Part shown: positions 17,168-49,810 of the stretch, piece after piece
Layout of the letters: each line of letters begins with the position of its first letter
How positions within the stretch are numbered: position 1 is the first letter of the stretch
From: a virus
Strand: one strand, 5' to 3'
IMG/VR virus record: IMGVR_UViG_3300044981_000083
Location: 1-57,064 of that record
Length of the DNA: 57,064 nucleotides
Made by a program: the position numbers and the translations under genes
Notes under the pieces: model-generated
Told to the model about the DNA's origin: nothing
The model's input: only the letters and a program-made list of their open reading frames with translations
Database searches by the model: none

Positions 17168-17256
17168 CCCAGTATACGGTATGCTGTGGTTGCGGCGGAT
17201 ATACGCGGAGAATCAAAGGTCGCTGCGAAACATGCGGCGATATTATCCCCAATTAG
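17168..17256 (+). pseudogene. Zinc-ribbon coding remnant after the tRNA
   Basis: The frame directly after the tRNA encodes CCGCGGYTRR, then GRCETCGDIIPN and a stop. This looks like the end of a zinc ribbon, with CxxCG pairs, but the frame has no start codon after the tRNA and runs back through the tRNA itself. It may be the tail of a gene cut by tRNA insertion. Confidence 0.35.
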
Positions 17257-29133: not shown

Positions 29134-29268
29134 ATGCCGGCGTGGCTCTCGATCGAAAGCCTTGCCGTCATGGCTCTCGCTTTATTGGGTATAAGCCTTC
29201 TGATCTGGCGCCGCCCGCGTTACCTGCCGCCAAGACGGCGTGGCAGGAAAAAGCGGCGCCCTTTCTAG
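29134..29268 (+). CDS. 44-residue membrane protein with basic tail
   Basis: One membrane span (residues 8-24, LAVMALALLGISLLIW) is followed by an Arg/Pro-rich tail. It starts four bases after the fibre gene stop. This gene argues for starting the O-antigen-ligase-like gene at 29280 rather than at an upstream GTG (29142) that would overlap it completely. Confidence 0.5.
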   Translation: MPAWLSIESLAVMALALLGISLLIWRRPRYLPPRRRGRKKRRPF

Positions 29269-29279
29269 GCTTCCTGGTC

Positions 29280-32505: not shown

Positions 32506-32693
32506 CCGAAGACAAAAACATCCTCGCCGTTATCGAGCCGGCCGATGCGCAGGCGTTAAGCCAAATCATCGACGACCAGTTGCCGCCGCGCTATGGGCGC
32601 ATCGTAGTCGAATGGTTCAATCGTTTGGTCATGCGCCAACAGCAGCGCGATAAGGAATCACTCAAACCTCCTATCGAATCACCCCCGAACTGA
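32448..32693 (+). CDS. Small exported helical protein
   Basis: The 81-residue protein has a signal peptide at residues 1-20 (AAYLLYALFCAVALA-E). The mature part of about 60 residues is helical, with no cysteine. It overlaps the end of the S74 fibre gene in another frame. Function unknown; an exported partner of the surface genes is possible. Confidence 0.6.
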   Translation: MVRVAAAYLLYALFCAVALAEDKNILAVIEPADAQALSQIIDDQLPPRYGRIVVEWFNRLVMRQQQRDKESLKPPIESPPN

Positions 32694-32707
32694 AAGGAAA
32701 CCTCCCA

Positions 32708-32875
32708 ATGCCCAACGATATCGGCGACGTGAAAGGCATCACCGGCACCTCCATGAACCTCAATACGCAGCCGGGTTATGGCGCGGAGAAGCCGTCCGCA
32801 ACCGCCGGCACGGCGAATCCCGGCAATACCAAGCCATCGAAGCCGGCGGAAAAGCCGGTCCCAATGCCGAAGTAA
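32708..32875 (+). CDS. 55-residue Pro/Gly-rich protein
   Basis: The protein is short, low-complexity and probably disordered (many Pro, Lys, Thr, Gly). AAAGGAAACC lies just upstream of the ATG, so translation is likely. It directly precedes the large terminase gene. No function recognised. Confidence 0.6.
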   Translation: MPNDIGDVKGITGTSMNLNTQPGYGAEKPSATAGTANPGNTKPSKPAEKPVPMPK

Positions 32876-32879
32876 TCTC

Positions 32880-34565
32880 ATGCTGCAATCGATCGCCAAC
32901 GCCTATTCCTTTGTGTCCGGCCTCAATGCGGCCGGCATGGCGGCGTTGGACAAGCTCCTCGCTCCCGAGCTCAAGGCACCCTGGCTTCCCGACCCGCGCA
33001 ACGAACCGCAGTTGCAGGCCTACTACTCGGAAGCGGGTCTAATGCTCTACGGCGGGGCGGCCGGCGGGGGCAAGACCGACCTCCTGATCGGGCTTGCCCT
33101 CACCGCTCACCAGAACGCGGTGATTTTCCGAAAACAGAGCACCGACCTTCGGGGCATCGAGGAACGCCTGACCCAGCTTGCCGGCCGCGATGGCTGGAAC
33201 GGCACGCTCAAGACCTTGCGCCGCGATCAGAGGTTGATCGAGCTCGGACACCTCGAAAAGCCGGGTTCGGAGGAAAGCTGGCGCGGTCGGCCCCACGATT
33301 TTATCGGCTTCGACGAGGGCGGCCAACTTTCGAAACACAAGGTCCGCTTTGTTCTGGGCTGGCTGCGCTCGGTCGATCCGAAACAAAGGCGCCGCGCCAT
33401 CATCGCCAGCAACCCTCCGACCGGCGGCGAAGGCGAATGGCTTATCGAATGGTTCGCGCCCTGGCTCGATCCGAAATACGATAAGCCCGCTCTACAGGGT
33501 GAATTGCGCTGGGCGGTGACGGCGCCCGACAAGGACGGCACCACGATCTGGCTTCCTGACGGCTCCCCCATCGTCTTCACTGGGCAGCGCGAGTGGCGCT
33601 ATGCCAGCGAAGCCGAAATCGCTCAGGGCGATTCCAACAATGATGTGGTGCAACCGCAGACGCGCACCTTCATCCAATCGTTGTTGCGAAATAACCCTTA
33701 TCTGGCGAATACCGGCTACCGGGCGCAGATTCAGTTGCTCCCGGAGCCCTTGCGGACCCAGCTTCTCAATGGCGATTTTATTGTTGGGCGGGAAGACCAC
33801 GAATGGCAAGTGATTCCGACGGCCTGGGTAAGGATGGCGCAGGAGCGCTGGAAGCCGAATCCCCCAGTTGGAGCCATGATGACGGCCATCGGTGTCGATG
33901 TGGCTCAAGGGGGTGGCGATCGTACCGTGTTGGCCCCGAGGTTTGGGCCATGGTTTGCGCCGCTTGTCGAGCGGCCTGGAATCTTGACGCCGACCGGTTC
34001 GCATGTTGCGGCCCTTGTGGTTGAGCACCGAAGGGACCGGGCCATCATCGTCATCGACATGGGCGGCGGCTATGGCGGGGCGGTGAAAATGCGATTGAAC
34101 GACAATGGGATTGGCGTTGGCGAGACTATCGAGCACCTGCGGCCCTTCAATGGGGCGAATGCGTCGGACGAACGCTCGAAAGACCGCCAGTTGGGCTTTG
34201 CCAATAAGCGCGCGGAGGCAATGTGGCGATTTCGCGAAGCCCTTGATCCCGATCAGAACGGAGGCTCCCCGATCGCATTACCGCCTGATCCGCAGATTCT
34301 CGGGGATTTGACCGCTCCACGGTGGAAATTGACTCCCCGCGGAATCCAGATCGAGGACAAGGACGAGTTGAAAAAGCCCGAACGGTTGGGACGTTCTCCC
34401 GACAAGGGAGATGCTATCATCCAAGCGTGGTCGGAAGGTGAAAAGGGGTTGGTGCTTGCGGCGAGAAAAGCCGCAAGGATCGGCGACAATAAATCCATGC
34501 CTAAATTTCCACGTTCCGATGATCTTCCGAGCGAGCGCGGCACCGGATGGCTGGGACGGAGTTAG
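32880..34565 (+). CDS. terL: Terminase large subunit
   Basis: The 561-residue protein shows all packaging-motor features: Walker A GGAAGGGKT at 58-66, Walker B FIGFDEGG at 141-148 with the catalytic Glu, and a coupling motif ASNPP at 176-180. The C-terminal RNase H-like nuclease begins with the metal-binding Asp in IGVDVAQGG (340). It powers DNA packaging and cuts headful or site-specific ends. It starts four bases after the preceding stop, and the portal follows without a gap. Confidence 0.95.
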   Translation: MLQSIANAYSFVSGLNAAGMAALDKLLAPELKAPWLPDPRNEPQLQAYYSEAGLMLYGGAAGGGKTDLLIGLALTAHQNAVIFRKQSTDLRGIEERLTQLAGRDGWNGTLKTLRRDQRLIELGHLEKPGSEESWRGRPHDFIGFDEGGQLSKHKVRFVLGWLRSVDPKQRRRAIIASNPPTGGEGEWLIEWFAPWLDPKYDKPALQGELRWAVTAPDKDGTTIWLPDGSPIVFTGQREWRYASEAEIAQGDSNNDVVQPQTRTFIQSLLRNNPYLANTGYRAQIQLLPEPLRTQLLNGDFIVGREDHEWQVIPTAWVRMAQERWKPNPPVGAMMTAIGVDVAQGGGDRTVLAPRFGPWFAPLVERPGILTPTGSHVAALVVEHRRDRAIIVIDMGGGYGGAVKMRLNDNGIGVGETIEHLRPFNGANASDERSKDRQLGFANKRAEAMWRFREALDPDQNGGSPIALPPDPQILGDLTAPRWKLTPRGIQIEDKDELKKPERLGRSPDKGDAIIQAWSEGEKGLVLAARKAARIGDNKSMPKFPRSDDLPSERGTGWLGRS

Positions 34566-36743
34566 ATGGATTACGGCTCGACATCGTCCGATCCGCCTCT
34601 CCCCGGCAACGAAGGGATTGTGCAGGAAGCCCTTGAGCGCTGGAAGGCCTGCAAGGAATTCCAGGGCACCCAGGACGAAAGAACGCGCGAGGATATCAAG
34701 TTCGCCAATGCTGATTCCAGGAACGCTTGGCAGTGGCCGACGAAGATTTATGCGCAGCGCACCGGGGGCGAATCCGAACTGCCGACGCTCACCATAAATA
34801 AGACGAGGGTGCATAACGACCTCATTATCAATGAAATCTCGAAGAATACCTTTTCCCCGAAGGTGCGGCCCACGGCGGGCAAGGCCTCCTATCAATCCGC
34901 GAAAGTGATGGAAAGCCTATTCCGCAGGACGTTCGATATTTCTCGGTTTGGAACGCATAAAAGGAAAGTCTGCGAGCAGCAGGTCGATGGGGGAATTGGG
35001 TACATACTGCTTGAAACTGCATTCATTTCCGAACGGTCGATGGACCAGGATATTTTTTTGAGGGCTTCGACCGATCCCACGGGGGTTTATATCGATCGCT
35101 ATATTCGCCAGCCTGACGGGTCGGACGCAAAATTCGGTTTTGTCTTCGACAATATGCCGCGAAAGGAGTTCAACCGCCGCTACCCGGAATGGAAGGACAA
35201 GGTTGGTGCCGCTCCGCTCGATAGTGCATTTGCAGACTGGCTTTCCGACAAGGAAATCATGCTTTGCAAGTATTGGCGCAAAGAGGAAAAGAAGGACACG
35301 TTAGTCTGGTTCAAACGCGCCGAAACCGGTGATCCGGAACTGAAACTCGCATCCGAGATCAAAAGCGAAAGCGGCCGAGAGATTTTCGACGCCTTGATGG
35401 CGGATATCAAGGAAGGCCGCATCGACGGCAAAACCCGATCGGTGACTAACGACAAAGTGCGGTGGTATCTGATCGCGGGTGACAAGATTGTCGATGAGGG
35501 AGACTGGGCCGGAAAATATATTCCGATCTGCCGTTGCGTCGGTCGTGAACTCGTCATCGATAAGACGCTTGACCGAAAGGGCCATACGCGACCGTTGATC
35601 GACGCCAACCGGATGCTGAATTACTCGAATTCGGTGGCCGTACAATACGTCGCGTCGTCGATGAAATCGCAATGGCTGGCGCCGGCAAGGGCGACGGAGG
35701 GACAAGAACAATGGAAGACGCAAAACGTCGATAATTACGCCGTGATGCTTTATAATGACGTGGATGACGAGGCGCCGGAAAATCTTCAGACTATTGCGCC
35801 TCCGCAGCGCATCGACCCGCCTTCTCCGTCTCTCGGCTGGCTCAAAGTCGCCGAAGACGCCGAAAAGCACATGATGATGATCTCGGGCCAATACCAAGCG
35901 CAGCTCGGGGAAAACGACCAGCAGTCCGCGATTTCTGGCAAAGCCATCAACGAGCGCAAGGAACAGGGCGATACCGCGACCTACCATTTTCCCGAGCACA
36001 TGAGCGACATGCTACGCTTTATTGGCGTGCAGTTGCTCGACCTTTATCCGAAAATTTATGACACCAAGCGTGCCCTTCACGTCATCGGCGAAGACGGCGA
36101 GAAATTCTGGCTCCAAGTCGATCCCAACATGGACGACGTGGTGCAGGAGGTAGCCGAGCAGCGAAACGACGAAGAGGCGATCAAGCTCGCCTTCAATCCG
36201 AAGCTCGGGGAATACGAATGCGTTTCCGACCCGGGACCCGATTATGCTACCCAGCGTCAGGAAGCCTGGAACGCCTTGTCGCAAATCCTCGCTGCAAATA
36301 AAGAACTAGGCGCCGTGTGCGCCGACCTCCTGTTCAAGTACGGGGATTTCGAGGGCGCGGAGGAATTGCGCGAACGGCTGTTGAAGGAAATCAAGGCCAC
36401 CAAGCCCTACCTTTTCAACGACCAGATCGAACCGCAGATGGTGCAGTTGCAGGAGCAGAACAAGCGTTTGATCGCTATCAATTCCGACCTCATGATGAAG
36501 GCTGCGGAATCCAATCTGAAGCTTAGGGGCAGGGATGAACGCCGCGATATCGACGCCTTCAACGCCGACACCAAGCGTCTCGAAATGCAAGTCAACGCGC
36601 TGTCGAAGCTTCTCCTCACCCCGCAGCAGCGGGCGCAGATGGAGCATGAATTGAACGTCGGCGTTCACGAGCATGTGTTCGATATGATCCGCGAGGCCAA
36701 TGCAACGCGGGTACTGGCCGGATTTGACGCGAACCCGGCCTGA
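34566..36743 (+). CDS. Portal protein, P22 type
   Basis: The protein has 725 residues, the size class of P22 gp1. It has the stem-helix region MMMISGQYQAQLGEND followed by QSAISGKAINERKEQGD, and then DMLRFIGVQLLDLYPKIYD, all typical of the P22 portal family. The C-terminal 100 residues are a long helical barrel-like segment. It forms the dodecameric DNA gate at one head vertex. It begins one base after the terminase stop. Confidence 0.92.
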   Translation: MDYGSTSSDPPLPGNEGIVQEALERWKACKEFQGTQDERTREDIKFANADSRNAWQWPTKIYAQRTGGESELPTLTINKTRVHNDLIINEISKNTFSPKVRPTAGKASYQSAKVMESLFRRTFDISRFGTHKRKVCEQQVDGGIGYILLETAFISERSMDQDIFLRASTDPTGVYIDRYIRQPDGSDAKFGFVFDNMPRKEFNRRYPEWKDKVGAAPLDSAFADWLSDKEIMLCKYWRKEEKKDTLVWFKRAETGDPELKLASEIKSESGREIFDALMADIKEGRIDGKTRSVTNDKVRWYLIAGDKIVDEGDWAGKYIPICRCVGRELVIDKTLDRKGHTRPLIDANRMLNYSNSVAVQYVASSMKSQWLAPARATEGQEQWKTQNVDNYAVMLYNDVDDEAPENLQTIAPPQRIDPPSPSLGWLKVAEDAEKHMMMISGQYQAQLGENDQQSAISGKAINERKEQGDTATYHFPEHMSDMLRFIGVQLLDLYPKIYDTKRALHVIGEDGEKFWLQVDPNMDDVVQEVAEQRNDEEAIKLAFNPKLGEYECVSDPGPDYATQRQEAWNALSQILAANKELGAVCADLLFKYGDFEGAEELRERLLKEIKATKPYLFNDQIEPQMVQLQEQNKRLIAINSDLMMKAAESNLKLRGRDERRDIDAFNADTKRLEMQVNALSKLLLTPQQRAQMEHELNVGVHEHVFDMIREANATRVLAGFDANPA

Positions 36744-36846
36744 TCCGGCGCCATTTCTGTCGGCGCGCGCGGCGCGACTGCAAGAGCCGCATCGATAAGT
36801 TCGCCGATCGACTACGAAACCGCAAAAAATAAAGCAGAGCGTAAAA
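36744..36846. other. Gap between portal and XRE gene
   Basis: The 103 bases hold no gene with a normal start. A frame beginning after TGA at 36727 encodes Arg/Lys-rich residues without ATG, GTG or TTG. The last 40 bases are AT-rich and could hold a promoter for the XRE gene. Confidence 0.35.
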
Positions 36847-37215
36847 ATGATCGAAGTGGCACACTCCATTAATTTGGAGCTTCTTGAACAGTTGAAAGAT
36901 CGGGAATACCGTCAAAAGTTCTTTTTGGCGGAATCCTCAGCACAAATTGCTGCGCAACTAATTGCGCTAAGGAAGAAACGTGACCTAAATCAGCAAGAAG
37001 TTGCAGAATTAATCGGTACTCAACAGCCTGCAATTTCTCGCATCGAAAAGGCTGACTATCAAAGCTGGAGCTTTAGCATTCTGCGCAAGATTGCCGGCGC
37101 CCTTGATGCGCGTATTCGCGTCTTAATAGAACCTTCTGAGGATATTATTGCCGCGCCTGATGATATCAGTTCACTCGGTCTTCTCGCCAAGATTTCTGCT
37201 GGGCTCGCTGAATGA
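36847..37215 (+). CDS. XRE-family regulator (HigA-antitoxin-like)
   Basis: Residues 33-85 of this 122-residue protein are a full XRE helix-turn-helix (AQLIALRKKRDLNQQEVAEL, then TQQPAISRIEKADY). The N-terminal helix (1-30) is as in HigA-like antitoxins. No toxin is beside it. Its DNA is distinctly more AT-rich than the portal and scaffold genes, and it sits between them in the late block, so it looks like a later insertion (moron). It overlaps the next gene by four bases. Confidence 0.82.
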   Translation: MIEVAHSINLELLEQLKDREYRQKFFLAESSAQIAAQLIALRKKRDLNQQEVAELIGTQQPAISRIEKADYQSWSFSILRKIAGALDARIRVLIEPSEDIIAAPDDISSLGLLAKISAGLAE

Positions 37216-37490
37216 GCGACTTCGCCGAAGAACTGAGGATCATCGCCCACGACCGTCCGCGCTTGAAAGAGCGCGAATGTGCGTTGCTGAATCTTGCCGC
37301 CGATACGGTCGATGAACTGGAACGGTCGCAGCAGGCTTTGATCAAGGCTCAGCAGCGCGAAATCGAGATGAACAACAGGCTGCTTGCCATCCAAGCGCAG
37401 TTGATGCGCGCGAGCTTGGCTCCCATGTCGGGGAGAGTAACCGTCATCGGCTACAATCCGTCGTGGATCATGTGGGGGCAGGCAAAATGA
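37212..37490 (+). CDS. Small coiled-coil protein of the head module
   Basis: Residues 5-68 of this 92-residue protein form a coiled coil (DELERSQQALIKAQQREIEM). The C-terminus ends with Trp-rich NPSWIMWGQAK. It is coupled to both neighbours by ATGA overlaps. A scaffold or head-assembly accessory role is possible from position only. Confidence 0.65.
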   Translation: MSDFAEELRIIAHDRPRLKERECALLNLAADTVDELERSQQALIKAQQREIEMNNRLLAIQAQLMRASLAPMSGRVTVIGYNPSWIMWGQAK

Positions 37491-38104
37491 AAGTCGCCGC
37501 CAATGTCAAGGACCTCGCCCATCGGATCACGCGAGAATTCCACGATATGACTCCGGACCAGGAGATCAAGCGAGTTTATCCCGATGCTGAGCGGTTCGTA
37601 CGGCAAAATTGGAAAAGCTTCATTGATGCCGCCCGCAAGATGATCGCGGAGCATAGGGGCGAGGAATTTCTGATCATCAACGGCGAGAAGATCGATAAGG
37701 CCGAAGCGATGGCGCTTCTCAAGGGCCTCTATCACGAAGCCGAAGAATGCGCCGGCGAGTTTCACGGCAAGAACCGTTCCGAGAAATTCCGCGCGAACTG
37801 GCCGGATGAAACTCTCTTCGCCAAGGCGAACTGGAAAAGCTTCGTCCAGGAAGCGCGCCGGAAGTATGCAGGGAAACTTGGCGATCTGCAGGTTCCCGAA
37901 GCCGAAAAGCGGCGAATCCATCTTGCCCTTGTCATCGAGCACGAAATCGCCGGCGGCCGGGAAAAAGACGCGAGGCTCCAACTCGCCCCCAATACCCAGC
38001 AGTTCGAGGGTGACAAATACGAAAACCGCAAGATACTTGAAAAGTTCGGCAAGCAGCCGGACTCGCTCAAGGACTTGCTGATGACTTCGACCCGCTTTCA
38101 CTGA
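37487..38104 (+). CDS. Conserved-type head-module protein
   Basis: This 205-residue, highly charged helical protein contains an internal near-repeat: FVRQNWKSFIDAARKM at about 45 and FAKANWKSFVQEARRKY at about 115, each about 16 residues. It lies between portal and scaffold. I recognise no family; the duplicated NWKSF unit may be a dimer-like fold within one chain. Confidence 0.65.
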   Translation: MKVAANVKDLAHRITREFHDMTPDQEIKRVYPDAERFVRQNWKSFIDAARKMIAEHRGEEFLIINGEKIDKAEAMALLKGLYHEAEECAGEFHGKNRSEKFRANWPDETLFAKANWKSFVQEARRKYAGKLGDLQVPEAEKRRIHLALVIEHEIAGGREKDARLQLAPNTQQFEGDKYENRKILEKFGKQPDSLKDLLMTSTRFH

Positions 38105-38112
38105 GGACGCAC

Positions 38113-38952
38113 ATGGATATTCTCGGAAAATACAGAGTGCCATTGTTTCAGGCGCCAGATATAGCGCCGGGCGCGACGCCTCCCGTTGTGATGCCGCCTG
38201 ATCCTTCGGTAATCCCGCCGGTTGAGCCGCCGGCCGGTGCCACAATCGAGCCGCAGAAAACGCCTCAACTTCCGTCCGGCGTCATCGACGAATTGACGAA
38301 GCTGCGCGCGGAAAAGCGTGAACTCGGCGAACGTGCTGCGCGTCTCGAACGCGAGGCTTCCGAAGCTCGAGCGCTTGCCGAGCGGGCTGTCGCGGCTGAC
38401 AAGGCGATTTCTCCGCCCACCGCGCCGCGCGTTCCTCCGGCTCCGACCGAAGAGGCCGAAATCGACCGACGCGCCGAATACAAACTGTTTCAGCGCGAAG
38501 TATCCTCGGTCATCACTCGCGGCCAGAAGGAATTCGGGCTTGCGGATTTCAACGAGACCGTTCGAGCGCTTCAAGCCTACGGTGCCGACAGCGACCAGTT
38601 CGTCTCCGAAGTGATGGCCGTCGATCGCGATAACGCGCACAAGCTTCTACACACCCTCGCCCATGACGGCGCGCAGACGATCGGATTGCTGGGCATGACG
38701 CCCGCGCAACGCCTCGCCGAACTCACAAGGATGCACATGGCCGCAAAATCCGCTGAGCCTGCTACGTCCGCCATTCCAGTCGTTCCGGCAAAGCCGGCCG
38801 TCGCTGCGACTGTCAGCGCAGCTCCCCGCCCCGCTCCCGTGGTCGAACCGTCTGCCGGAAAGACCGTCATGCGCTACGGCGACGAACGTTCGGACGCGGA
38901 ATTCACGGAAGACTTCAAGAAATGGGAAACGCGCAAGATGCGCCGACGTTGA
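38113..38952 (+). CDS. Scaffolding protein (probable)
   Basis: The 279-residue protein has a Pro-rich start, a long coiled coil (about 58-100, LRAEKRELGERAARLEREAS), a helical middle, a Pro/Ala linker, and a short basic C-terminal end (FKKWETRKMRRR). This is the layout of P22-type scaffolds, where the basic C-terminal helix-turn-helix binds the coat. Position just before the coat gene supports it. Confidence 0.75.
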   Translation: MDILGKYRVPLFQAPDIAPGATPPVVMPPDPSVIPPVEPPAGATIEPQKTPQLPSGVIDELTKLRAEKRELGERAARLEREASEARALAERAVAADKAISPPTAPRVPPAPTEEAEIDRRAEYKLFQREVSSVITRGQKEFGLADFNETVRALQAYGADSDQFVSEVMAVDRDNAHKLLHTLAHDGAQTIGLLGMTPAQRLAELTRMHMAAKSAEPATSAIPVVPAKPAVAATVSAAPRPAPVVEPSAGKTVMRYGDERSDAEFTEDFKKWETRKMRRR

Positions 38953-39149
38953 TTCCTGTTTCATGTCGCGACCTGAGCGTCATCAGGGATCGGGCGTAAC
39001 GCGACATCGCCCTTCGCCGCCGACCTGAGCGATATCAGGGTGCTCCCGTCCTTGTCAGATTCGGGACCTGACATGCACCGCGGCTCTTATGCCGCTTCCC
39101 TTTTCCGCGCCTTGGAGATGGCGCACGACAATCCTCAGGAGCCATCCCG
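38953..39149 (+). promoter_or_regulatory. Structured leader of the coat gene
   Basis: The region has no gene. ATGTCGCG (38963-38970) pairs with CGCGACAT (39000-39007) around an inner stem CCTGA/TCAGG (38972-38987). CCTGA/TCAGG recurs at 39024-39039, and GTCAG/CTGAC at 39054-39072. The repeated ACCTGAGCG stem-loops may be a promoter operator or an mRNA-stabilising leader for the highly expressed coat gene. CAGGAG precedes the start at 39150. Confidence 0.5.
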
Positions 39150-40409
39150 ATGGCGAACAATATCCTCACCCCGTCGATGATCACGCGGTTTTCCATCCGC
39201 ATGTTTCTCAATACCAACTATTTCCTTCAAAACGTAAGTCGACAGTTCGAGTCACAGTTCGGCATCGAAGGCGCGAGGATCGGCGCCCAGCTTCGTATCC
39301 GCTATCCAAACCAATATACCGTGACCGATGGTCCCGGCATTTCGATCCAGGACACCACGGAAGAACAGTTCCTCCTCACCGTCGCGACGCAACGCCATGT
39401 GGACGTGGCATTCACGTCGGCGGAAACCACTCTCGATATCGACGACTACATGGAGCGCATCGTCCTTCCGAGGGTCAACGCCCTGGCCGCGAACGTTGCC
39501 TATCAGGTGATGATCAATACCGCTTCGTCGGTCAAGAACGCGGTCGCAAACGTCGATGCCAATAACAATATCCTCCCGATTACGGACGCTCCCATTGCGC
39601 TTGCAAGAGGTATCCTGGAGGAAAACTCATCTCCGAATTTCGGCGAGATGGGGATGCGCAAGACCGCTTTGGCTCCGCGCTCCGACGTGCGCATGCAACA
39701 GGCATTGCGTGGCTTGCTGAATCCCGTCGATGAAATCTCCCGCCAATACAACTCGGGAATGATGTATGACGCCCTTGGGCTCAGGTTCTTCGAGGATCAG
39801 ACGGTCATCAGCCACACGACCGGGACGTTCACCACGGCGACCGTTAATGGTGCCAACCAGACCGGGCAGGCCCTCACGGTCAATGCTCTGAATGGTACGG
39901 TGAACCAAGGCGACGTGTTCTCGATCGCCGGAGTGAACGCCGTCAACCGGACGAGTTTCCAGTCCTTAGGTATCGCCGCGCAGTTCGTTGCGGTTCAGAA
40001 TGCCGCAGCCGGTGCAGTCTCGATCTCGATCTATCCGGCGATCATCCCGCCGGCATCCAATGCGCCCTATGCGGGCCTGCCCTATACCCCGCAACAATAT
40101 CAGACCGTCACTGCTTCGCCGGCGAACAATGCCACCATCACTCCCTTCGCAAATGCCGGGGTGACCTACCGCGAAAACCTCGTCTATGCGCCGGACGCGA
40201 TCACGCTGGTTGTCGCTCCGCTGTGGATTCCGCCCAACGAAAAGGGCGTCATCGCCGCAGCGAGGCACAATTACGACAGTCTGTCGATGCGCTCTCTCGT
40301 CTGCTATGAGCCGACTACCGATCAGCCGATCGACCGGCTCGATATTCTGTTCGGGTCCGGTGTGCCGAGACCGGAATGGATCGTGCAAGCTATGGATTCG
40401 GTGCCGTAA
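39150..40409 (+). CDS. Major capsid protein, P22 coat type
   Basis: This 419-residue protein starts MANNILTPSMITRFSIRMFLN, then NYFLQNVSRQFE, and has IRYPNQYTVTDGPGI and DYMERIVLPRVNALAANVAY, the pattern of P22 coat protein (PF11651-type). P22 coat adds an inserted telokin-like domain to the HK97 fold; the central Ala/Thr-rich segment (about 215-300) may be the corresponding insertion. It forms the icosahedral head. There are separate scaffold and decoration-like genes on either side. Confidence 0.92.
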   Translation: MANNILTPSMITRFSIRMFLNTNYFLQNVSRQFESQFGIEGARIGAQLRIRYPNQYTVTDGPGISIQDTTEEQFLLTVATQRHVDVAFTSAETTLDIDDYMERIVLPRVNALAANVAYQVMINTASSVKNAVANVDANNNILPITDAPIALARGILEENSSPNFGEMGMRKTALAPRSDVRMQQALRGLLNPVDEISRQYNSGMMYDALGLRFFEDQTVISHTTGTFTTATVNGANQTGQALTVNALNGTVNQGDVFSIAGVNAVNRTSFQSLGIAAQFVAVQNAAAGAVSISIYPAIIPPASNAPYAGLPYTPQQYQTVTASPANNATITPFANAGVTYRENLVYAPDAITLVVAPLWIPPNEKGVIAAARHNYDSLSMRSLVCYEPTTDQPIDRLDILFGSGVPRPEWIVQAMDSVP

Positions 40410-40442
40410 GGTTCGGATCACGCTCACTCTGCGGTGGCGATC

Positions 40443-40456
40443 GGCTAGACGGTCAC
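40443..40456. repeat. Dispersed element, copy 5
   Basis: GGCTAGACGGTCAC is followed by CCCGATGCGG. It lies between the coat gene and the decoration-like gene, 34 bases after the coat stop. Confidence 0.6.
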
Positions 40457-40502
40457 CCCGATGCGGCACTGTGCTGCGCGACTGAAAAAAAGGAGACTCA
40501 CA

Positions 40503-41126
40503 ATGGCGTACGACTCCGAAAAGCACGAAATCGATCCCGTGACGGGGTTTGCGGTGCATAAGGATACCGAGAGTATCGTGGGCGTTGTTCCGCGCCCGCG
40601 CCGCCCCACCGAGCCCGTCATCTATCCGGCCTGGATCAAGCCGCATCAGAGTCACATTATTCGGAAGAAGGTCGAAGGGGCGCCGGATGACGTCTCATGT
40701 CCGGGGTTTGAGAGCCGCGTCGATCCGGTCAACGGCGAGGTAACAGTGCTCGTGAACGACGCCGCCCACGAGGCCGTCGCTACGCTGCCGAGAAACGAAC
40801 GCAAGAACGTGCCCACCGGCGACTATCCGACCTGGGTAGCGCCCCACGAAAGCCATGTGGAACGCAAGAAAACCGAAGGCGCGCCGGATCACGTCTCGTG
40901 TCCCGGCTTCGAAACCTCTGTGAATCGCGTCAACGGCGAGGTCAGGGTGCTCGTGCTCGATGCCGACCACGAAAAGGTCGCAACGGACGCGAAGCAGGAG
41001 GCGAAGGTCCCGGATCCTCCTCTTCACGCGCCCCCGAATCCTTCCAGCAGCGCCGGCGCCTCTCCTCCCCCTCCGGTTCCTCCTCTTCGCCCATCCGAAC
41101 CCCCGCAGGCCGCCGCAACGGGCTGA
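40503..41126 (+). CDS. Head decoration-like protein with internal duplication
   Basis: The 207-residue protein has two tandem copies of about 65 residues. Both contain W(I/V)xPHxSHxxRKKxEGAP, DxVSCPGFE and NGEVxVLV (residues 40-105 and 106-170). A Pro/Ser-rich tail follows. Its start at 40503 has AAAAGGAGAC upstream. Position after the coat gene suggests a capsid decoration or stabilising protein; the family is not identified. Confidence 0.7.
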   Translation: MAYDSEKHEIDPVTGFAVHKDTESIVGVVPRPRRPTEPVIYPAWIKPHQSHIIRKKVEGAPDDVSCPGFESRVDPVNGEVTVLVNDAAHEAVATLPRNERKNVPTGDYPTWVAPHESHVERKKTEGAPDHVSCPGFETSVNRVNGEVRVLVLDADHEKVATDAKQEAKVPDPPLHAPPNPSSSAGASPPPPVPPLRPSEPPQAAATG

Positions 41127-41136
41127 AGGTTCGGAT

Positions 41137-41172
41137 CGCCGCGCGGGTTGGTTCCCTCCCGTCCGCGCGGCG
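41137..41172. terminator. GC-rich hairpin beside parS
   Basis: CGCCGCGCGG and CCGCGCGGCG form a perfect 10-bp stem with a 16-base loop. No T-run follows directly, but the parS palindrome and TTTTT come within 20 bases. Together they could attenuate transcription after the coat genes. Confidence 0.5.
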
Positions 41173-41175
41173 TAA

Positions 41176-41191
41176 TGTTTCACGTGAAACA
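41176..41191. promoter_or_regulatory. parS: Perfect parS-type centromere site
   Basis: TGTTTCACGTGAAACA is identical to the consensus of bacterial chromosomal parS, the site bound by ParB/Spo0J; with flanks ATG..CAT it is an 18-bp perfect palindrome. It is the only such site in the window. It lies 18 bases before the next start codon, in a 5' leader. It is followed by TTTTT, so a terminator-like role is an alternative. The phage has no ParA and its ParB-domain protein is a methyltransferase fusion, so host ParB is the likely binder. Confidence 0.75.
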
Positions 41192-41208
41192 TTTTTAGGA
41201 GACTTCCT

Positions 41209-41988
41209 ATGTTTGTCATGCCGACCCGTGAGCAGGCGGGCTATCTTCCCCCCGAAATCGCCGGCGAAGGTCAAAAAGTCATCCTCGGCGATGGCGAGAC
41301 CGTCAACTGGTCGCCCCCGCCGAACAAACCGATCATTCCCGACATTTCCAATGTCAAGAGCATCCGTAAATACTTCAACCGCATTGGTTACCAAGTATGG
41401 CCGGCATGGCTCTACCATCCAACCGAGCCCGCGAGACTGGCGAAGACGGCCCATGAAGCCGCGGAGCTGGGTGTCTGCTATCGCGAAGCCTCGAACGACG
41501 AAAAAGGTCGCTATGGCCGTTCCCATGTGTGGGACTGGAAGGACGATTCGTTGTGGCGCCCGACGCCCTACGCGGTAAGCAAGGCGAGGGTCTATGATCC
41601 CCTTCGCCCCGAACAGGGCAAGGAATTTCGTCCAACCCCGCCGAATCCCATCGTGGCACAGGATGCGCTGCTCGAAAGACTTCTGCCCGCGATCGCCGCC
41701 GCAGTGGCGAAGGAGGTCCGTAAGCCCGACGGCATCGACCCGCGCCAGTGGGACTCGTTCCTCAAATTCCAGGCCTTCCAGAAGGCACAGGAAGCCCTGG
41801 AGAACGCGAACAGCGAATCGAGGGAGGAAGATGCCCCCGCGAGCGAACTCGCGCTCAGTACCCTCTCCCCCGAGCAGGAACGGGCGGCCTATGAGGCGGA
41901 AGCCGAAAAGCTTGGGATCAAGACGGATGGTCGCTGGTCGCTCGATAAGCTCAAGAACATGGTCAAGCAGGCCCAGAAGGCGGCGTGA
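41209..41988 (+). CDS. Head-module protein with HeH/SAP-like C-terminus
   Basis: Most of this 259-residue protein is unassigned (Trp- and Pro-rich PNKPIIPDISN, VWPAWLYHP). The last 35 residues, YEAEAEKLGIKTDGRWSLDKLKNMVKQAQK, look like a HeH/LEM- or SAP-like helix-extended-helix domain that binds DNA or proteins in phage virion proteins. The ribosome-binding site TTAGGAG is good and lies directly behind parS. Confidence 0.7.
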   Translation: MFVMPTREQAGYLPPEIAGEGQKVILGDGETVNWSPPPNKPIIPDISNVKSIRKYFNRIGYQVWPAWLYHPTEPARLAKTAHEAAELGVCYREASNDEKGRYGRSHVWDWKDDSLWRPTPYAVSKARVYDPLRPEQGKEFRPTPPNPIVAQDALLERLLPAIAAAVAKEVRKPDGIDPRQWDSFLKFQAFQKAQEALENANSESREEDAPASELALSTLSPEQERAAYEAEAEKLGIKTDGRWSLDKLKNMVKQAQKAA

Positions 41989-42212
41989 TGCTCACGTTCT
42001 CAGCCTTAGAATCTGCGGCCCGTGAGCGGTTCGGCCAAGCTGTGACGATCGCTCCCTCGGGGGATGGATTTCGCCTCGCTTTTCCCGATGGCCGCCATGT
42101 GGCATTTCCATTCGGCCGTGCCGATCGGGAACGCATGGCCGATGAATTCATGACCAACACGGTTGCCCCGATCGTCGCTTCGTTGGAGGCGAAGCCTCCA
42201 AACCCTCCCTAG
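41985..42212 (+). CDS. Small head-module protein
   Basis: The 75-residue protein starts with GTG in an overlap with the previous stop (or at ATG 41988). Beta-alpha pattern with GDGFRLAFPDGRHVAFPFG and a C-terminal helix. No family recognised. Confidence 0.65.
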   Translation: MMLTFSALESAARERFGQAVTIAPSGDGFRLAFPDGRHVAFPFGRADRERMADEFMTNTVAPIVASLEAKPPNPP

Positions 42213-42313
42213 GGCCGGGACCCCCAACCCCGGCCCCGGCGGCGGCGCCACGTCGTCCCCCTCAGCCCGTTGTGCCGCCGCCATCCTTCCCGCTTCCGAA
42301 TGTTAGGCGAATA

Positions 42314-42577
42314 ATGTCGATCACCGATAAGCTCGCCCTGATCGCGACGCGACGCACGGAATTCAATGCCGCGCTGCATGCGGATGCGGACGCTTTGCTG
42401 GCGCGCTATGCGGAAGTGGAAGCAAAGAAAAGCGCGGCCTTCACCAAGCATCACGCCCAACTCGAAACCGAGGAAACCGAACTCGCGACAGTCGAGGCCG
42501 CAATCGACCGCATGAGCAACATGGGAAACGCGCCAGGCTCGGAGCCATCCTCCGAGAAGCCCAAAAACGGCGGATAA
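42314..42577 (+). CDS. Small coiled-coil protein
   Basis: This 87-residue protein is almost wholly helical with acidic heptads (EVEAKKSAAFTKHHAQLETE), ending in a disordered tail. The start is chosen at 42314 because upstream codons are Pro-rich and atypical. A structural accessory role is likely from position. Confidence 0.6.
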   Translation: MSITDKLALIATRRTEFNAALHADADALLARYAEVEAKKSAAFTKHHAQLETEETELATVEAAIDRMSNMGNAPGSEPSSEKPKNGG

Positions 42578-42583
42578 GGTGAG

Positions 42584-43366
42584 ATGGCCGGACCTCCCGC
42601 CGAAGGCCCCATACCGGTCGATACCGTTTCGGCTTTATTGATCAATGCACTGACCGATGCCGGGGTGGTGGGAATCGACGAGGCTATCGAGCAGCCGATC
42701 CTCAACCGGGCCTTCACGCAAGCGAATTGGCTGTTAGCACAATGGGCAAGAAAACGTTGGCTTTGTTATCGACTCCAGGATTATTCGTTCGTCTCGACGG
42801 GAGCACTAACATACAGCGTGGGGTTGACGGCTCCGAATGCTCCCACGGCCATCAATATCAATCCTCGACCCGACCGTTTGGAATATGCCTTCCTGAGGTT
42901 TCTCAACCAGAATCCTCCCTCGGGGTTATTCGTCGATATTCCGATCGACATTATCCAGTCCCACGAGGATTATTCAGGCATCACGGTAAAGAACATCGGC
43001 ACCTTGCCATGGCGGATATTCTACGATCCGGTATGGCCGGTAGGGGTGCTGTTTCCCTGGCCGGTCCCGCAGCCGACGATCTATGAGATACATTGCGGCT
43101 TCAAGGTCGTCCTTCCCCGGTTTGCAAATCTCCAGCAGGCGATCAATTTCCCCCCCGAGTATGAAGCCGCGTTGAATTGGTGTCTGGCGCGACGGTTTCG
43201 TGCGAGCTATCAGATGCCGCCTGATCCGACCATCGATTCGCTTGCAAGAGATGGTCTCAATGTGATCCGCCTCGCGAACCAACAAATGCCGACGCTGCGC
43301 ATGCCGCAGTTCCTTCGTGGAGGAAACCGGGCGTATGATTACCGCGGCGATTCCGATTCATACTGA
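42584..43366 (+). CDS. P22 gp4-like head-to-tail adaptor
   Basis: The 260-residue protein has the pattern of P22 tail accessory factor gp4: an N-terminal helix with ILNRAFTQANWLLAQWARKRW, then SFVSTGALTYSVG, RPDRLEYAFLR and a C-terminal helical part with EYEAALNWCLARRFRASY. It binds below the portal dodecamer and begins tail assembly. Position between head and gp10-like genes agrees. Confidence 0.82.
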   Translation: MAGPPAEGPIPVDTVSALLINALTDAGVVGIDEAIEQPILNRAFTQANWLLAQWARKRWLCYRLQDYSFVSTGALTYSVGLTAPNAPTAININPRPDRLEYAFLRFLNQNPPSGLFVDIPIDIIQSHEDYSGITVKNIGTLPWRIFYDPVWPVGVLFPWPVPQPTIYEIHCGFKVVLPRFANLQQAINFPPEYEAALNWCLARRFRASYQMPPDPTIDSLARDGLNVIRLANQQMPTLRMPQFLRGGNRAYDYRGDSDSY

Positions 43367-43382
43367 CAAAGGAGACCAATCG

Positions 43383-43880
43383 ATGAACCTCATTCGAGCC
43401 TGCCGCGCCTTCGGCGCCGGATTCGCCTTGGTGTTGCTCGGCTTCATTGCTCACGCTGCTGTCGGCACGCCGCCGCTCGGCGGTATCGGTCCTGCTTTGC
43501 AGGACGGCCAATGGCTGCTCGGTCTCGCGGGAGGCACGAATTACGGCTACCAGTCGGGGATCACGGCCCATGCCGGGGGCACCCAGGCCGCAGCCACCGT
43601 ACTGCCGACGAACATTGCCCTAGTCGAGGTGGATACAGTCGCCACGACCGGCGATAGCGTGGCGCTGCCGCAATGTATTCAGGGCACGTGGTTGTTTCTT
43701 CGCAATGCCGGCGCCGGAACGCTCGACGTGTACGGCAATACGATCACCAACCCCCTGAGTGCGACGCTCGATACCATCAACGCGACGGCGGGGACGAGCG
43801 CTTACACCCTCACGACCAACACCAACGCGATCTTCTTCTGCGCCAAAAACGGCGCATGGTCGGCGGGCAAGGTCAGTTGA
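43383..43880 (+). CDS. Exported small virion-module protein
   Basis: The 165-residue protein has a signal peptide at residues 1-26 (RAFGAGFALVLLGFIAHA-A). The mature part is Gly/Thr-rich and beta-rich with TTGDSVALPQCIQGTWLFLRN, resembling a small trimeric fibre or decoration domain. Two Cys could pair. AAAGGAG precedes the start. It is one of several signal-bearing late proteins. Confidence 0.65.
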   Translation: MNLIRACRAFGAGFALVLLGFIAHAAVGTPPLGGIGPALQDGQWLLGLAGGTNYGYQSGITAHAGGTQAAATVLPTNIALVEVDTVATTGDSVALPQCIQGTWLFLRNAGAGTLDVYGNTITNPLSATLDTINATAGTSAYTLTTNTNAIFFCAKNGAWSAGKVS

Positions 43881-43883
43881 ACG

Positions 43884-45425
43884 ATGCGCGGTTTCCAGCG
43901 GGACGGCTTTATTCCGCTGACCTCCGGCGCCTATGCGCAACGAGCCTTAATCGCGGATGCACAGCGCTGCATCAACCTTGTGCCCGAGTTGAATCCGGAG
44001 GACACGACGCCGGCCGCAGCGGTGACGCATTATCCGCGCGCAGGACTGAGCGGACTGGGTGCCGGTCCTCCTAATCCCGCCACGGGCCGGGGAGTCTTCA
44101 CTGCCAGCAACGGCAATCTCTATGGTGCGGTTGCCAACAACTTCTATTTCATCAACCAGGATTGGAAATACAACCTTCTCGGCCAGATCAATAACGGGCC
44201 GAATCCGGTTTCCTTTGCCGACAACGGTACGTCCGGAATCATCGTCGATGGTTCGCCGAACGGCTACAGTTTCAACATCACCAACAATCAATGGAATGGA
44301 CTATACCAGGACCCGACTGGAACCTTTATCGGTTCGGTGAGGGCCGATTATGTCGATACGTTTCTCACCTTTGACGCACCGAACAGCAATGAGTGGTATG
44401 CCTCGCTGAGCCTTCAGCTCGCGTTCAATGCGCTGGCAGTCGGGGGTGCGACGAGTTTCCCGGATAAGATCATTACTCATGCGGTGAATTTGAGACAGGT
44501 TTTCCTGCTCAAGGAGTTCACGACCGAAGCATGGTATCTTTCCGGTGCGGTTCCTTTTCCTTTCGAGGAATGGCCGAACGTCTTCGTTCCCTATGGATGC
44601 GCGGCGGCTTATTCTCTGGCGAAAGCCGATACCTTTCTGTTTTGGATTTCACGAAACAGGGATGGCCAAGCGATGGCCGTCATGCTCGACGGCTATGGGG
44701 TCAAGATCATCTCGACCAGGGCATTGGAATATCGCTGGACGAATTACGCCAAAGTTCAGGATTGCATCGCCTATTCGTATCAGCAGGCGGGACATACCTT
44801 CGTCGTATTTCATTTTCCGAGCGCCGATGAAGCCTGGGCCTACGACCTCTCGACAAGGCAATGGCACCAAAGGGTGTGGATCGACAATAACGGTGTGTTT
44901 CATCGCGAGCGTGTCGCATTCCATGCCTTCGTTTCCACGACCAATGGATATCCTGATACGAACGTCGGAATGGACTGGGCGACTGGGCAAATCTACAAGA
45001 TCGACCAGAAGGCATACACCGACGTTGGCATGCCGATCGCGTGTATCCGGTCGTTTCCCCATGTGACGGGCGAGCTCAAGGAAATGACTATCCCCTCTTT
45101 CGTCGCCGACATGGCGACCGGAGATATCCCGAACACCGGGGAAATCAATCAAACCCTGTCTCCCTGGTCGAATGGCTGGAGCAATGGGTTTGGTCCGCTT
45201 ATTGTCCAAGAATCTCCGCAGGTCGCGTGCCGTATTTCGAGGGATGGCGGGGGCACATGGGGGAACTATCGCAAAAAATGGTTTATTTCCGCCGGACGAT
45301 ATCGCTCGATGATGCGATGGCGTAATTGGGGCATGGGACGAGATTTGGTATATGAGTTGGCGTTTCCGGCCTACAATCTCGCTCTCCAAGGCGCCTATAT
45401 CGAGCCGATCAAGCATGCAGCGTGA
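43884..45425 (+). CDS. P22 gp10-like tail hub/stabilisation protein
   Basis: This 513-residue protein begins MRGFQRDGFIPLTSGAYAQR and has repeated beta-propeller-like segments (YGAVANNFYFIN, TSGIIVDGSPNGYSF, WAYDLSTRQWHQRVW), as in P22 packaged-DNA stabilisation protein gp10. It closes the head and attaches the needle or spikes. It follows the gp4-like gene after the exported protein. Confidence 0.82.
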   Translation: MRGFQRDGFIPLTSGAYAQRALIADAQRCINLVPELNPEDTTPAAAVTHYPRAGLSGLGAGPPNPATGRGVFTASNGNLYGAVANNFYFINQDWKYNLLGQINNGPNPVSFADNGTSGIIVDGSPNGYSFNITNNQWNGLYQDPTGTFIGSVRADYVDTFLTFDAPNSNEWYASLSLQLAFNALAVGGATSFPDKIITHAVNLRQVFLLKEFTTEAWYLSGAVPFPFEEWPNVFVPYGCAAAYSLAKADTFLFWISRNRDGQAMAVMLDGYGVKIISTRALEYRWTNYAKVQDCIAYSYQQAGHTFVVFHFPSADEAWAYDLSTRQWHQRVWIDNNGVFHRERVAFHAFVSTTNGYPDTNVGMDWATGQIYKIDQKAYTDVGMPIACIRSFPHVTGELKEMTIPSFVADMATGDIPNTGEINQTLSPWSNGWSNGFGPLIVQESPQVACRISRDGGGTWGNYRKKWFISAGRYRSMMRWRNWGMGRDLVYELAFPAYNLALQGAYIEPIKHAA

Positions 45426-45428
45426 TTC

Positions 45429-46259
45429 ATGGCCAACTCGCAAACCGGCGTTCCCGGCATTCCGCAAGGTCCCTTGGTGGACCGTAACGGCGTGCCGATG
45501 CCGATATGGTGGCAGTTTTTCAATAATCTGTGGGTGCGTACCGGGGCCGCTTCGGGTACGCCATCGCTCGTTCTTGATAATATCTCGTCAACGCCCGGAG
45601 CGACGCTTTATCGCGGCAGTGCAATCTGGTCGGGACTTGCGCCCGCTGCGCGTTATAAAGTCCTGCGGATGGGCGTCACCTATCCGGAATGGGATACGCT
45701 CGACGGCAATTCATTCGGGGCACAAGCCAAGTCAAGTTTCTTCGTTTCGCCGGATAATGCGTCCGGCGTTCCGGCATTCCGTCCGATCGCCTCTCTCGAC
45801 CTTGGTCCGGTCGCCGGACAGATTCCGGGCACGGGCACGAACGACGATGCGACTGCGGGAAATACCGGGGAATTCATCTCGCAATCGATTCCACTTGGTC
45901 ACGCGGTTGCGCTTGCCAGCGGCGTCGCTGCCGATATCGCATCAATCGTATTGACTCCGGGTGATTGGGACGTATGGGCAAACATCGCAAACATTCCCGA
46001 TCCCACCACGACAACCTCGATCATAAGGGCGTGGATCAACACAGTCCCGGCGACCGATCCGGCGGCGCCGAACTCGGGAGCGTATCTGTTGATGCAACAG
46101 GCAATCGGGGCCGGATTGGCTCAGGCGTTTCCGGTGGGAATGAAACGCATCACAGTTCCGACCGCAACGACAACAACGGCCTACATGTCAACGAAAATGA
46201 CATTCGCGGTTGCGAACCTGGGGGCTTACGGATTCCTCGGGGCGCGGAGGCCGCGATAG
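45429..46259 (+). CDS. Tail/virion protein
   Basis: The N-terminus of this 276-residue protein, GVPGIPQGPLVDRNGVPMPIWWQFFNNL, is a motif found at the start of many phage tail-attachment proteins. The C-terminal 100 residues are beta-rich (GDWDVWANIANIP) and end in a positively charged tail. It may be a needle, plug or fibre adaptor; the exact role is unclear. Confidence 0.65.
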   Translation: MANSQTGVPGIPQGPLVDRNGVPMPIWWQFFNNLWVRTGAASGTPSLVLDNISSTPGATLYRGSAIWSGLAPAARYKVLRMGVTYPEWDTLDGNSFGAQAKSSFFVSPDNASGVPAFRPIASLDLGPVAGQIPGTGTNDDATAGNTGEFISQSIPLGHAVALASGVAADIASIVLTPGDWDVWANIANIPDPTTTTSIIRAWINTVPATDPAAPNSGAYLLMQQAIGAGLAQAFPVGMKRITVPTATTTTAYMSTKMTFAVANLGAYGFLGARRPR

Positions 46260-46301
46260 ACCCATCCGTTGGATTTTCGATTGGATTATCGGTCAAAGAA
46301 A

Positions 46302-46541
46302 ATGTTCCGCCGCCAGTATTTCGCGTGGTTCGATCTGAGACGGAAGGAATTCCGGCTGAGCCTCTTTCCGCCGGACTCTCCGGTCCGTCCGTCATTGGGG
46401 TTTCCGACCAAGAGCGATCTTCTGACCTTCGCGGATCGGAAGCGCGGCAACGTGCTATGGTCGCCGCCGTTAACCCGGCAACAAGAACAGGCTGGCTTGT
46501 CGGTCGAAGCTTCGATGCAAGAGAATTCAACCGCATATTGA
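46302..46541 (+). CDS. Small virion-module protein
   Basis: This 79-residue protein has basic and aromatic FRRQYFAWFDLRRKEFRLSL, then LGFPTKSDLLTFADRKRG, which is convincing protein-like sequence. A TTG start at 46269 would add 11 residues. It overlaps the next gene by 85 bases in another frame, which is more than usual, so the start of one of the two may be wrong. Confidence 0.5.
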   Translation: MFRRQYFAWFDLRRKEFRLSLFPPDSPVRPSLGFPTKSDLLTFADRKRGNVLWSPPLTRQQEQAGLSVEASMQENSTAY

Positions 46542-47278
46542 ATGATCCGGCGGTTTATCCGTTCGTTACCTTGCCTCACCTTAAAACTCTCGATGCGTCG
46601 CCCCTGGTCGATGATCCCCGAAATTTCCTTTTGATGGCCGATGGCGGCGGTATCATTTTTCACTGTCTCGATGCCGGGGTTTATGAAGTCCATACCGCAT
46701 TCCTCAAACCTGACCGGGAAAAACTATCGCAGCAAGGTCCGCATATCCGCAATGCGTGCCTTGAAGCCTATCGTTTCATGTTCACGCATTCAGACTGCGT
46801 GGAGTTGCTGACTAAGATTCCGGCGCATAACAGGGCCGCGACAATCTTCGCTCCGCTAGTGGGTTGGACGAAAGAATATCAACGAGAAGCGGTATGGCCG
46901 ACGCCTGATGGAAATGTGGGACTTTCCTACTGGTCGCTGCGCTATGACGACTGGGTGAGGAAGACCCCCGACCTCATGAGCGCGGGGCGGTGGTTTCACG
47001 ACCGGCTCGAACAGGAATGCGAGCGCCTAGGCCATACTCTACCCCACCATGACGATGATGCTGCCCACGATCTTCATGTCGGTTCTGCAGTAGAAATGAT
47101 CTATGGCGGCCAGACGGAAAAGGCCGTGATCCTCTATAATCGATGGGCGCGATTTGCGGGGTATGGGCTGATCGCATTGCTGTGCAAGAATCCCCTGCTG
47201 ATCGATATTGGCGATGCGCTGATCGAAATCCTCCCGGAGACCTTCAAGGTGCTGAAATGCCGGTTGCCGCAGGCATAA
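46457..47278 (+). CDS. GNAT-like virion-module protein (P22 gp14-like)
   Basis: The 273-residue protein has FDAREFNRILNDPAVYPF, then GGGIIFHCLDAGVYEVHTAFLKPD and KIPAHNRAATIFAPLVGWTK. This is the N-acetyltransferase fold with the beta-bulge and P/N motif, as in the P22 gp14/DUF2824-type proteins. It may be inactive and structural. It overlaps the next gene by 22 bases. Confidence 0.7.
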   Translation: MVAAVNPATRTGWLVGRSFDAREFNRILNDPAVYPFVTLPHLKTLDASPLVDDPRNFLLMADGGGIIFHCLDAGVYEVHTAFLKPDREKLSQQGPHIRNACLEAYRFMFTHSDCVELLTKIPAHNRAATIFAPLVGWTKEYQREAVWPTPDGNVGLSYWSLRYDDWVRKTPDLMSAGRWFHDRLEQECERLGHTLPHHDDDAAHDLHVGSAVEMIYGGQTEKAVILYNRWARFAGYGLIALLCKNPLLIDIGDALIEILPETFKVLKCRLPQA

Positions 47279-47937
47279 GCGCCGCCGGATCGCTCGGCGG
47301 AAGCCTGATGAGCTATCTCGGCTCGCAAGGCGCCGCCGGTAAGATTTCCGGCATGGGCGGCCAAGCGATCTCCGCACTCGAATCGATGTTTAACACCGCG
47401 CAAGGCGCGCTCAATCCTTTCATTTCGGCCGGGCAGGGTGTCCTGCCCGCATTATCGAAACTTCTTACGCCCGGTCCCTCACAAACCTCGACCCTCCAAA
47501 ACCTTCCTGGTTTCCAGTTTCAATCGCAATATGGCACCATGGCAGCGACGAATGCGCTTGCTGCCCGTGGTCTCGGGGGTTCAAGTGGTCCGCTCGGAAC
47601 GGCAATCTCCAATTACAACCAGGGACTCGCCGGAACCTCATTCGGAAATCTTACCGGCATGCTGCAAAATTACGCCAACATGGGATCGGGTGCCGCAGGG
47701 TCGCTGGCCCAAGCCGCAGGACAAGCGGGCGGCAACCTTGCCTCGACGTTCACTAGTTTGGGAAACAGCCTAGCTCAGACGACCATGGGCGGGTTCAATG
47801 CGATCGGGAGTGGAATCAGCGGCGGGGCGAACTCGATCGCGAATTATCTCGCGCTCGGGCCCTTGATTCAGAAGCTCATGGGCGGCGGTGGGGGTGGCGG
47901 GGGCGCCTACCAGGTTGCGCCGGGGGCCGACCAATGA
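47257..47937 (+). CDS. DNA-ejection protein candidate (Gly/Ala-rich)
   Basis: The protein has 226 residues, is extremely rich in Gly, Ala and Ser, and has amphipathic and weakly hydrophobic helices. This is the composition of P22 gp7/gp20-type ejection proteins, which leave the head and insert into the cell envelope. It ends GGGGGGGGAYQVAPG. It is the first of four genes of the ejection module. Confidence 0.7.
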   Translation: MPVAAGISAAGSLGGSLMSYLGSQGAAGKISGMGGQAISALESMFNTAQGALNPFISAGQGVLPALSKLLTPGPSQTSTLQNLPGFQFQSQYGTMAATNALAARGLGGSSGPLGTAISNYNQGLAGTSFGNLTGMLQNYANMGSGAAGSLAQAAGQAGGNLASTFTSLGNSLAQTTMGGFNAIGSGISGGANSIANYLALGPLIQKLMGGGGGGGGAYQVAPGADQ

Positions 47938-48497
47938 ACAATTCGACGCTGCGCCGCTCTTTGATGCCGGCCCCTCCTGACCTCGCGGGGAGTGATGGGC
48001 CGTTGGCCTCCGCGATGCCCCAAGGCATGCCGCAAATGGCTCCTGGCGCCGCCCCCAATGCGCCGCCGCAAGAAGGTCCCCCGCAACAGCCGGCGCCCTC
48101 CCACGAACAGACTGTCGCAGCCCTGCGGCATTTCCAGGCGCTGCTTGCCGAAGGTAGGACGCTGTTGAAGAACCCCGACCTCGGCAAGTCCAATGTCAAG
48201 TCCGCGATACAGGATGGCGCCATCAAGCTCGTGGCCGACGGCATCATTTCCCCGGCCGATGCCGTGACCCAGCTCGCAACAGTGCCGGAACGCCCGATCG
48301 AACAGAAGAAATGGGTGGAGAACCTTTACGCGCAAGCGGTGACTGCACAATCCAATGTGCTGGACCATCATCGCATGGCGCATATCGGAACCGGAGACTA
48401 CGGGATTGAAAGCGCGCTGCATCAAAGCAATCCCGATGCCCATAAGCAGACGATGCAAGGGATGATGGAAGCGCATTACGGGGGCGGACGTGGCTGA
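47934..48497 (+). CDS. Ejection-module protein
   Basis: The 187-residue protein has a Pro/Gly-rich first third and a helical remainder (EQTVAALRHFQALLAEGRTL). Position between ejection-like genes and the ATGA overlaps suggest an internal virion protein. No clear family. Confidence 0.65.
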   Translation: MNNSTLRRSLMPAPPDLAGSDGPLASAMPQGMPQMAPGAAPNAPPQEGPPQQPAPSHEQTVAALRHFQALLAEGRTLLKNPDLGKSNVKSAIQDGAIKLVADGIISPADAVTQLATVPERPIEQKKWVENLYAQAVTAQSNVLDHHRMAHIGTGDYGIESALHQSNPDAHKQTMQGMMEAHYGGGRG

Positions 48498-49809: not shown

Positions 49810-49810
49810 C

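Follow-up and report, generated by a model that had tools for sequence, protein, structure and literature searches.

Why does a soil-type phage that encodes no partition genes carry a perfect copy of the site at which bacteria load the chromosome partition protein ParB? The question is raised by a 16-bp palindrome, TGTTTCACGTGAAACA, at positions 41176-41191 of the window, the 57,064-nucleotide stretch of viral DNA that was analyzed. The sequence is the published parS consensus (PMC10197239), of the chromosomal type; it matches at all 16 bases and reads identically on both strands. From base composition, 4.9e-6 exact copies are expected in the window, and scanning all 57,064 bases returned no second match at three or fewer mismatches. 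The palindrome extends perfectly to 20 bp (AATGTTTCACGTGAAACATT, 41174-41193), with parS as its core. Among 145 IMG/VR sites from the matches listed, parS is flanked by A..T on both sides in 48 and by AA..TT in 16. An earlier note on this DNA had described an exact ParB-site consensus, present once, in a phage with no ParA, and all three statements hold. The ParA family PF13614 has no match in the window or in two related parS carriers, G002 and G003, and the HTH_ParB domain PF17762 has none in the window or in 13 near-complete relatives, in a search that could miss a divergent ParB. With neither ParA nor an HTH_ParB-type ParB, the window phage does not qualify as encoding its own ParABS system.

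The site lies in an 82-bp intergenic gap that separates a stop codon at 41126 from the next ATG at 41209, and is positioned 17 nt 5' of that ATG. It is followed by AGGAG (41197-41201, plus strand), the likely ribosome-binding site of the downstream gene, and directly preceded by a strong GC-rich hairpin with an 11-bp stem (41137-41172, plus strand), a feature distinct from parS that may be an RNA element of the leader. The downstream gene (41209-41988, plus strand) encodes a protein of 259 residues with no assigned function; it is kept in the phage family at 27-54% identity, and the relatives' copies are not preceded by parS. The earlier note had placed the site in the leader after the coat and decoration genes. 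The coat gene is confirmed as that of the major head protein (39150-40409, plus strand; phrog_283, E 1.2e-49), whereas the decoration label for the gene at 40503-41126 (plus strand) finds no PHROG or Pfam match. The product of the latter contains an internal duplication, with two similar segments (SCPGFES.. and SCPGFET..). Head-closure, terminase and portal genes were also recognized in the window and, together with the coat gene, mark the parS region as late and the phage as tailed. A Cro/C1-type HTH gene (36847-37215) interrupts the late operon between the portal and scaffold genes. CtrA sites, as present in other alphaproteobacterial phages, were not found in the window.

Relatives were collected by coat protein, giving 50 loci with coat segments 60-93% identical, to which more distant ones were then added; GenBank phages include no close DNA relative. 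The earlier note had looked to related phages for parS at the same place, and none of the 50 loci has it at this leader. A search of 66 whole records of the phage family, which total 1.67 Mb with 0.0002 exact sites expected, revealed an exact parS in one, G002, and a site one change from consensus in another, G003. The G003 site is TGTTTCACGTGGAACA, the B. subtilis-type parS as read from the opposite strand. The lack of conservation in related phages that the earlier note would have held against the site thus applies to its position (0/50 loci) and not to its presence (G002, G003): within the phage family, parS presence recurs and parS position does not. Approximately 11 of 14 near-complete family genomes have no parS at all, so phages of this kind can do without the site. 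Four family members (G006, G012, G024 and G031) encode a tyrosine integrase, and the family therefore includes temperate phages. None of these four carries parS, and tyrosine and serine recombinases are missing from the family's three parS carriers. The split would be in keeping with an episome or a carrier state, in a sample too small to count.

In both G002 and G003, parS is located inside the linker of an early-region regulator gene, and the two regulators are 39-46% identical; the window parS sits elsewhere. A search with the two regulator sequences, rather than with parS, as queries returned one further homologue, on contig G151. This regulator is 72% identical to that of G002 and also bears an exact parS, which is thereby present in all three known homologues. 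When the G002 and G151 genes are aligned as DNA, all 16 bp of parS are perfectly kept, while the surrounding linker, the most diverged part of the gene, is diverged and gapped. None of the family's structural genes is found in the G151 phage. As the parS-bearing regulator (L295:2483 in G002, L296:2462 in G151) is common to phages without common structural genes, the regulator and its embedded parS seem to move between phages. We do not claim descent of the G002 and G003 sites from a single position, as the MAFFT alignment offsets the two copies by ~18 residues despite the pairing of the two genes by BLAST; excess conservation at the codon level was likewise not demonstrable for this pair with the MAFFT alignment. 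The comparison of site retention rests instead on the G002-G151 pair and on a pair of Quhwahvirus phages.

Phages at large carry the same site. An exact parS is present in 286 of 50,697 GenBank phage records (2.3 billion bases), a count that includes many close relatives (e.g. Listeria phages) and some unannotated contigs that are possibly bacterial. Two control palindromes of the same composition, one reversed and one with a pair swapped, occur in 0 and 0 records. The carriers are named for Listeria, Microbacterium, Arthrobacter, Gordonia, Bacillus, Lactobacillus, Enterococcus, Vibrio and other hosts, and include single-stranded DNA microviruses. Neither 60 evenly spaced records of the 286 nor the ten commonest names include phages of Escherichia, Salmonella or Klebsiella, hosts not known to have a chromosomal parABS. 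In IMG/VR, at least 120 stretches contain an exact parS compared with 1 for the reversed palindrome; the sample analyzed consists of the first 120 stretches and is not random. Among the matches listed, HTH_ParB is encoded by 0 and ParA by 1 of the 44 carriers of 20 kb or more, and 103 of 120 parS loci have one site only. The viruses labeled 'bajarodino' (GenBank PQ006097, PQ006149 and others) have ~6-kb genomes in which parS occurs 5-6 times (10-12 places when both strands are counted), much more densely than in tailed phages, and the IMG/VR contigs L067, L094 and L113 have 3-5 copies inside ~1 kb.

Several features of these sites indicate that selection acts on the DNA sequence itself. Only 58 of 122 sites (48%) fall within open reading frames of at least 80 residues, compared with 86% of random positions, and the sites therefore avoid genes. 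Where parS does lie in a reading frame, the frame encoding VSRET dominates (39 versus 19). In gp67 of two Quhwahvirus phages, 76% identical in amino acid sequence, the 20-bp GATGTTTCACGTGAAACATC around parS is kept within an indel-bearing linker; gp67 has no homology to the G002 regulator. The Quhwahvirus phages Shotgun and Ariadne have a sub-threshold N-terminal match to TIGR00180, possibly a partial ParB-like protein, so ParB cannot be called missing from these two with confidence. A literature search limited to open-licence papers returned no paper surveying phages for lone parS. As far as we have found, then, lone parS is widespread in phages and apparently unsurveyed, and the window is one case of it.

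A candidate host was suggested by a relative of the window phage, a 57.9-kb contig assigned by binning to a Beijerinckiaceae metagenome-assembled genome (MAG). On contig C212 of this MAG an exact parS lies no more than 1.2 kb from an HTH_ParB gene (1.3e-31) and a ParA-like open reading frame. The site is inside an apparent rsmG, and the locus reads rsmG-parA-parB-like. The binned phage contig was considered as a parS carrier and rejected; the only parS copies in the bin are on C7 and C212, the latter being the par locus. The same exact parS occurs in 28 of 40 sampled Beijerinckiaceae genomes, in 1-3 copies that are often ~2 kb apart, and the reversed control occurs in none. Together, the par-locus parS of the MAG and its recurrence in the family indicate that the window's host, assigned through a single related contig in this MAG, likely has a ParB that recognizes TGTTTCACGTGAAACA. 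The candidate hosts, Alphaproteobacteria, are not known to form spores.

In our view these observations make it very likely that the window site is a selected ParB-loading site. A genuine parS, the missing phage partition genes, the parS of the host clade and the widespread occurrence of lone parS above chance make recruitment of host ParB, which the earlier note had suggested, the best reading; the binding itself we infer. We propose that host ParB dimers would load at the phage parS and, closed into clamps with CTP, slide onto adjacent phage DNA. The ParB-coated genome might then be treated like an additional chromosome origin, with host ParA tethering it to the nucleoid, and in a slow, dormant or episomal infection phage genomes could be shared out to daughter cells. 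A parS works wherever it is placed, so its position is free to change, and this fits the distribution described above. Judged from the genomes, it is about an even call that a selected parS loads the host's chromosomal ParB and that phage DNA is handled by the host partition machinery. As the main benefit we favor placement or partition of phage DNA, because most sites are single (103 of 120 loci listed), one parS can stabilize a plasmid and both phi29 and the genomic island SGI1 provide precedents; we give it about the same chance of being right as wrong. For plasmid stabilization, one parS together with par genes is enough (PMC7022226, PMC4368675). The analysis identified no genes for replication or for an episomal life that could establish a carrier state.

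The window site would be a variant of the ParB borrowing already known from phi29 and SGI1, which it would extend to the chromosomal system and to hosts presumed not to form spores. For phi29, the work of Meijer et al. 2005, as cited in PMC9437464, describes how the host ParB, Spo0J, aids entrapment of phage DNA in the spore. In records of the phi29 family, gene 15 matches the window's 30-mer around parS at 96-100%, and phi29 has no TIGR00180 match. Both genomes thus contain parS, and the reliance on host chromosomal ParB that is described for phi29 is proposed here. Infecting a sporulating host, phi29 benefits by getting into the spore, whereas the candidate hosts of the window phage are Alphaproteobacteria; the phages are also unrelated. 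SGI1 uses parS-like sites for partition by the ParABS system of an IncC plasmid (PMC10954446). Like SGI1, the window phage is a mobile element without ParAB that bears the partition sites of another replicon; unlike SGI1, which exploits a plasmid system with two sites and the helper protein Sci, it has a chromosomal site in one copy. P1-type phage-plasmids and extrachromosomal mycobacterial prophages encode their own ParA and ParB (PMC7157519). In these systems ParB acts at a centromere-like site, as we propose for the window phage, which in contrast encodes neither protein. Compared with the bacterial chromosomal parS sites attributed to Livny et al. 2007 in PMC10197239, the 16 bp are identical, but the window copy is on a phage genome, remote from a par operon or oriC.

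Among the alternatives, the one that survives best is a decoy, in which replicated parS-bearing phage genomes pull ParB and ParB-loaded SMC off the host origin and disturb segregation or division in the phage's favor. Many clamps can load from one parS, and a decoy is also independent of position, such that the same distribution data fit. The parS sites of SGI1 destabilize the helper plasmid besides stabilizing SGI1 (PMC10954446). A decoy should, however, favor arrays, and 103 of the 120 IMG/VR loci among the matches listed have a single site; in a fast lytic cycle, moreover, blocking host segregation gains the phage little. We therefore consider this explanation unlikely, while giving it more weight than those that follow.

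Local regulation is a second alternative. ParB spreading from the leader could dampen or block the adjacent late genes and thereby tie late expression to the state of the host, the roadblock or silencing that the earlier note had also entertained. The window parS is 17 nt before a start codon within the late operon, a parS lies likewise 24 nt upstream of a gene in the Arthrobacter phage Nubia, and excess ParB can repress parS-proximal promoters in Pseudomonas (PMC5521831). The sites of the relatives argue against a common regulatory target: they are in an early-region regulator gene (G002, G003) and never in this leader in ~50 relatives, which makes a late-gene roadblock or silencer unlikely as a general function. 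The varied positions of parS within the family and beyond are also hard to reconcile with a function at a single neighboring promoter. We regard local regulation as quite unlikely.

A chance match, or a functionless piece of host DNA passively acquired, would be in keeping with a parS position that is not conserved, and large scans do turn up rare matches. Set against this are the small numbers of exact sites expected in the window and in the family, where independent relatives nonetheless carry parS, and the complete absence of both control palindromes from 2.3 billion bases of phage DNA. The window parS is also flanked by two phage genes, with no host gene around it. This explanation is improbable.

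That the leader acts only as an RNA hairpin, whether terminator, attenuator or mRNA stabilizer, with an accidental likeness to parS, is in our estimation very improbable. The leader RNA folds into two hairpins with a stability above that of shuffled sequences (z -2.5), and T residues come after the palindrome. The stem of the palindrome, however, has only two G-C pairs, so it does not have the GC-rich stem with T-run of a terminator, and a terminator scan of 32000-50000 omits it; a terminator-only role, which the earlier note would have counted against its reading, is less likely. No hairpin is retained at this place in the relatives. The chance that a random 8-bp half-site would equal that of parS is ~1 in 65,000, and parS is enriched across phages, often in coding linkers, while matched palindromes are not.

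Finally, parS is most improbable as the target of the phage's own ParB-methyltransferase fusion, because the fusion lacks HTH_ParB, the parS-reading domain, and has no homologue in the 15 related or parS-sharing phages compared, including the parS-bearing G002, G003 and G151. The gene (18091-19473, plus strand), correctly recognized in the earlier note, joins a ParB_N-like domain to an MT-A70-type methyltransferase; ParB_N scores slightly below the Pfam cut-off and ParB-like PHROG families match significantly. Although it does encode a ParB_N-like fold, such fusions are common in phages and are known there without a ParABS context (PMC12704722), and this one looks unconnected to the parS mechanism. 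Other features of the window are a tRNA-Arg (tct) gene at 17095-17169, a DUF5131 gene at 20175-21257 with strong matches to the PADLOC candidate defence models PDC-M41B and PDC-M30B, and, adjoining a tail-fibre-like gene, a gene of the Wzy_C (O-antigen ligase) type at 29142-30515, which is also found in several relatives and possibly modifies the host surface.

We tentatively propose that a lone parS, free in its position and capturing host ParB, is a widespread phage strategy: a 16-bp centromere graft that may serve as a minimal one-site device for partition, anchoring or a carrier state, and that may have been repeatedly gained and lost in this family. With similar reserve, we suggest that its carriers range over lytic and temperate double-stranded DNA phages and small single-stranded DNA microviruses, in many host phyla that include non-spore-formers. 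If this is true, the chromosome machinery of the host would segregate, position or mark many phages, and phage-like elements, that have no partition genes of their own, through 16 bp that gene annotation does not report. Such a site would let phages enter carrier states and pseudolysogeny at little cost, and would explain the persistence of some phages that have no integrase. It would also link ParB-SMC biology to infection, and provide a clue to host range that can be read from sequence.
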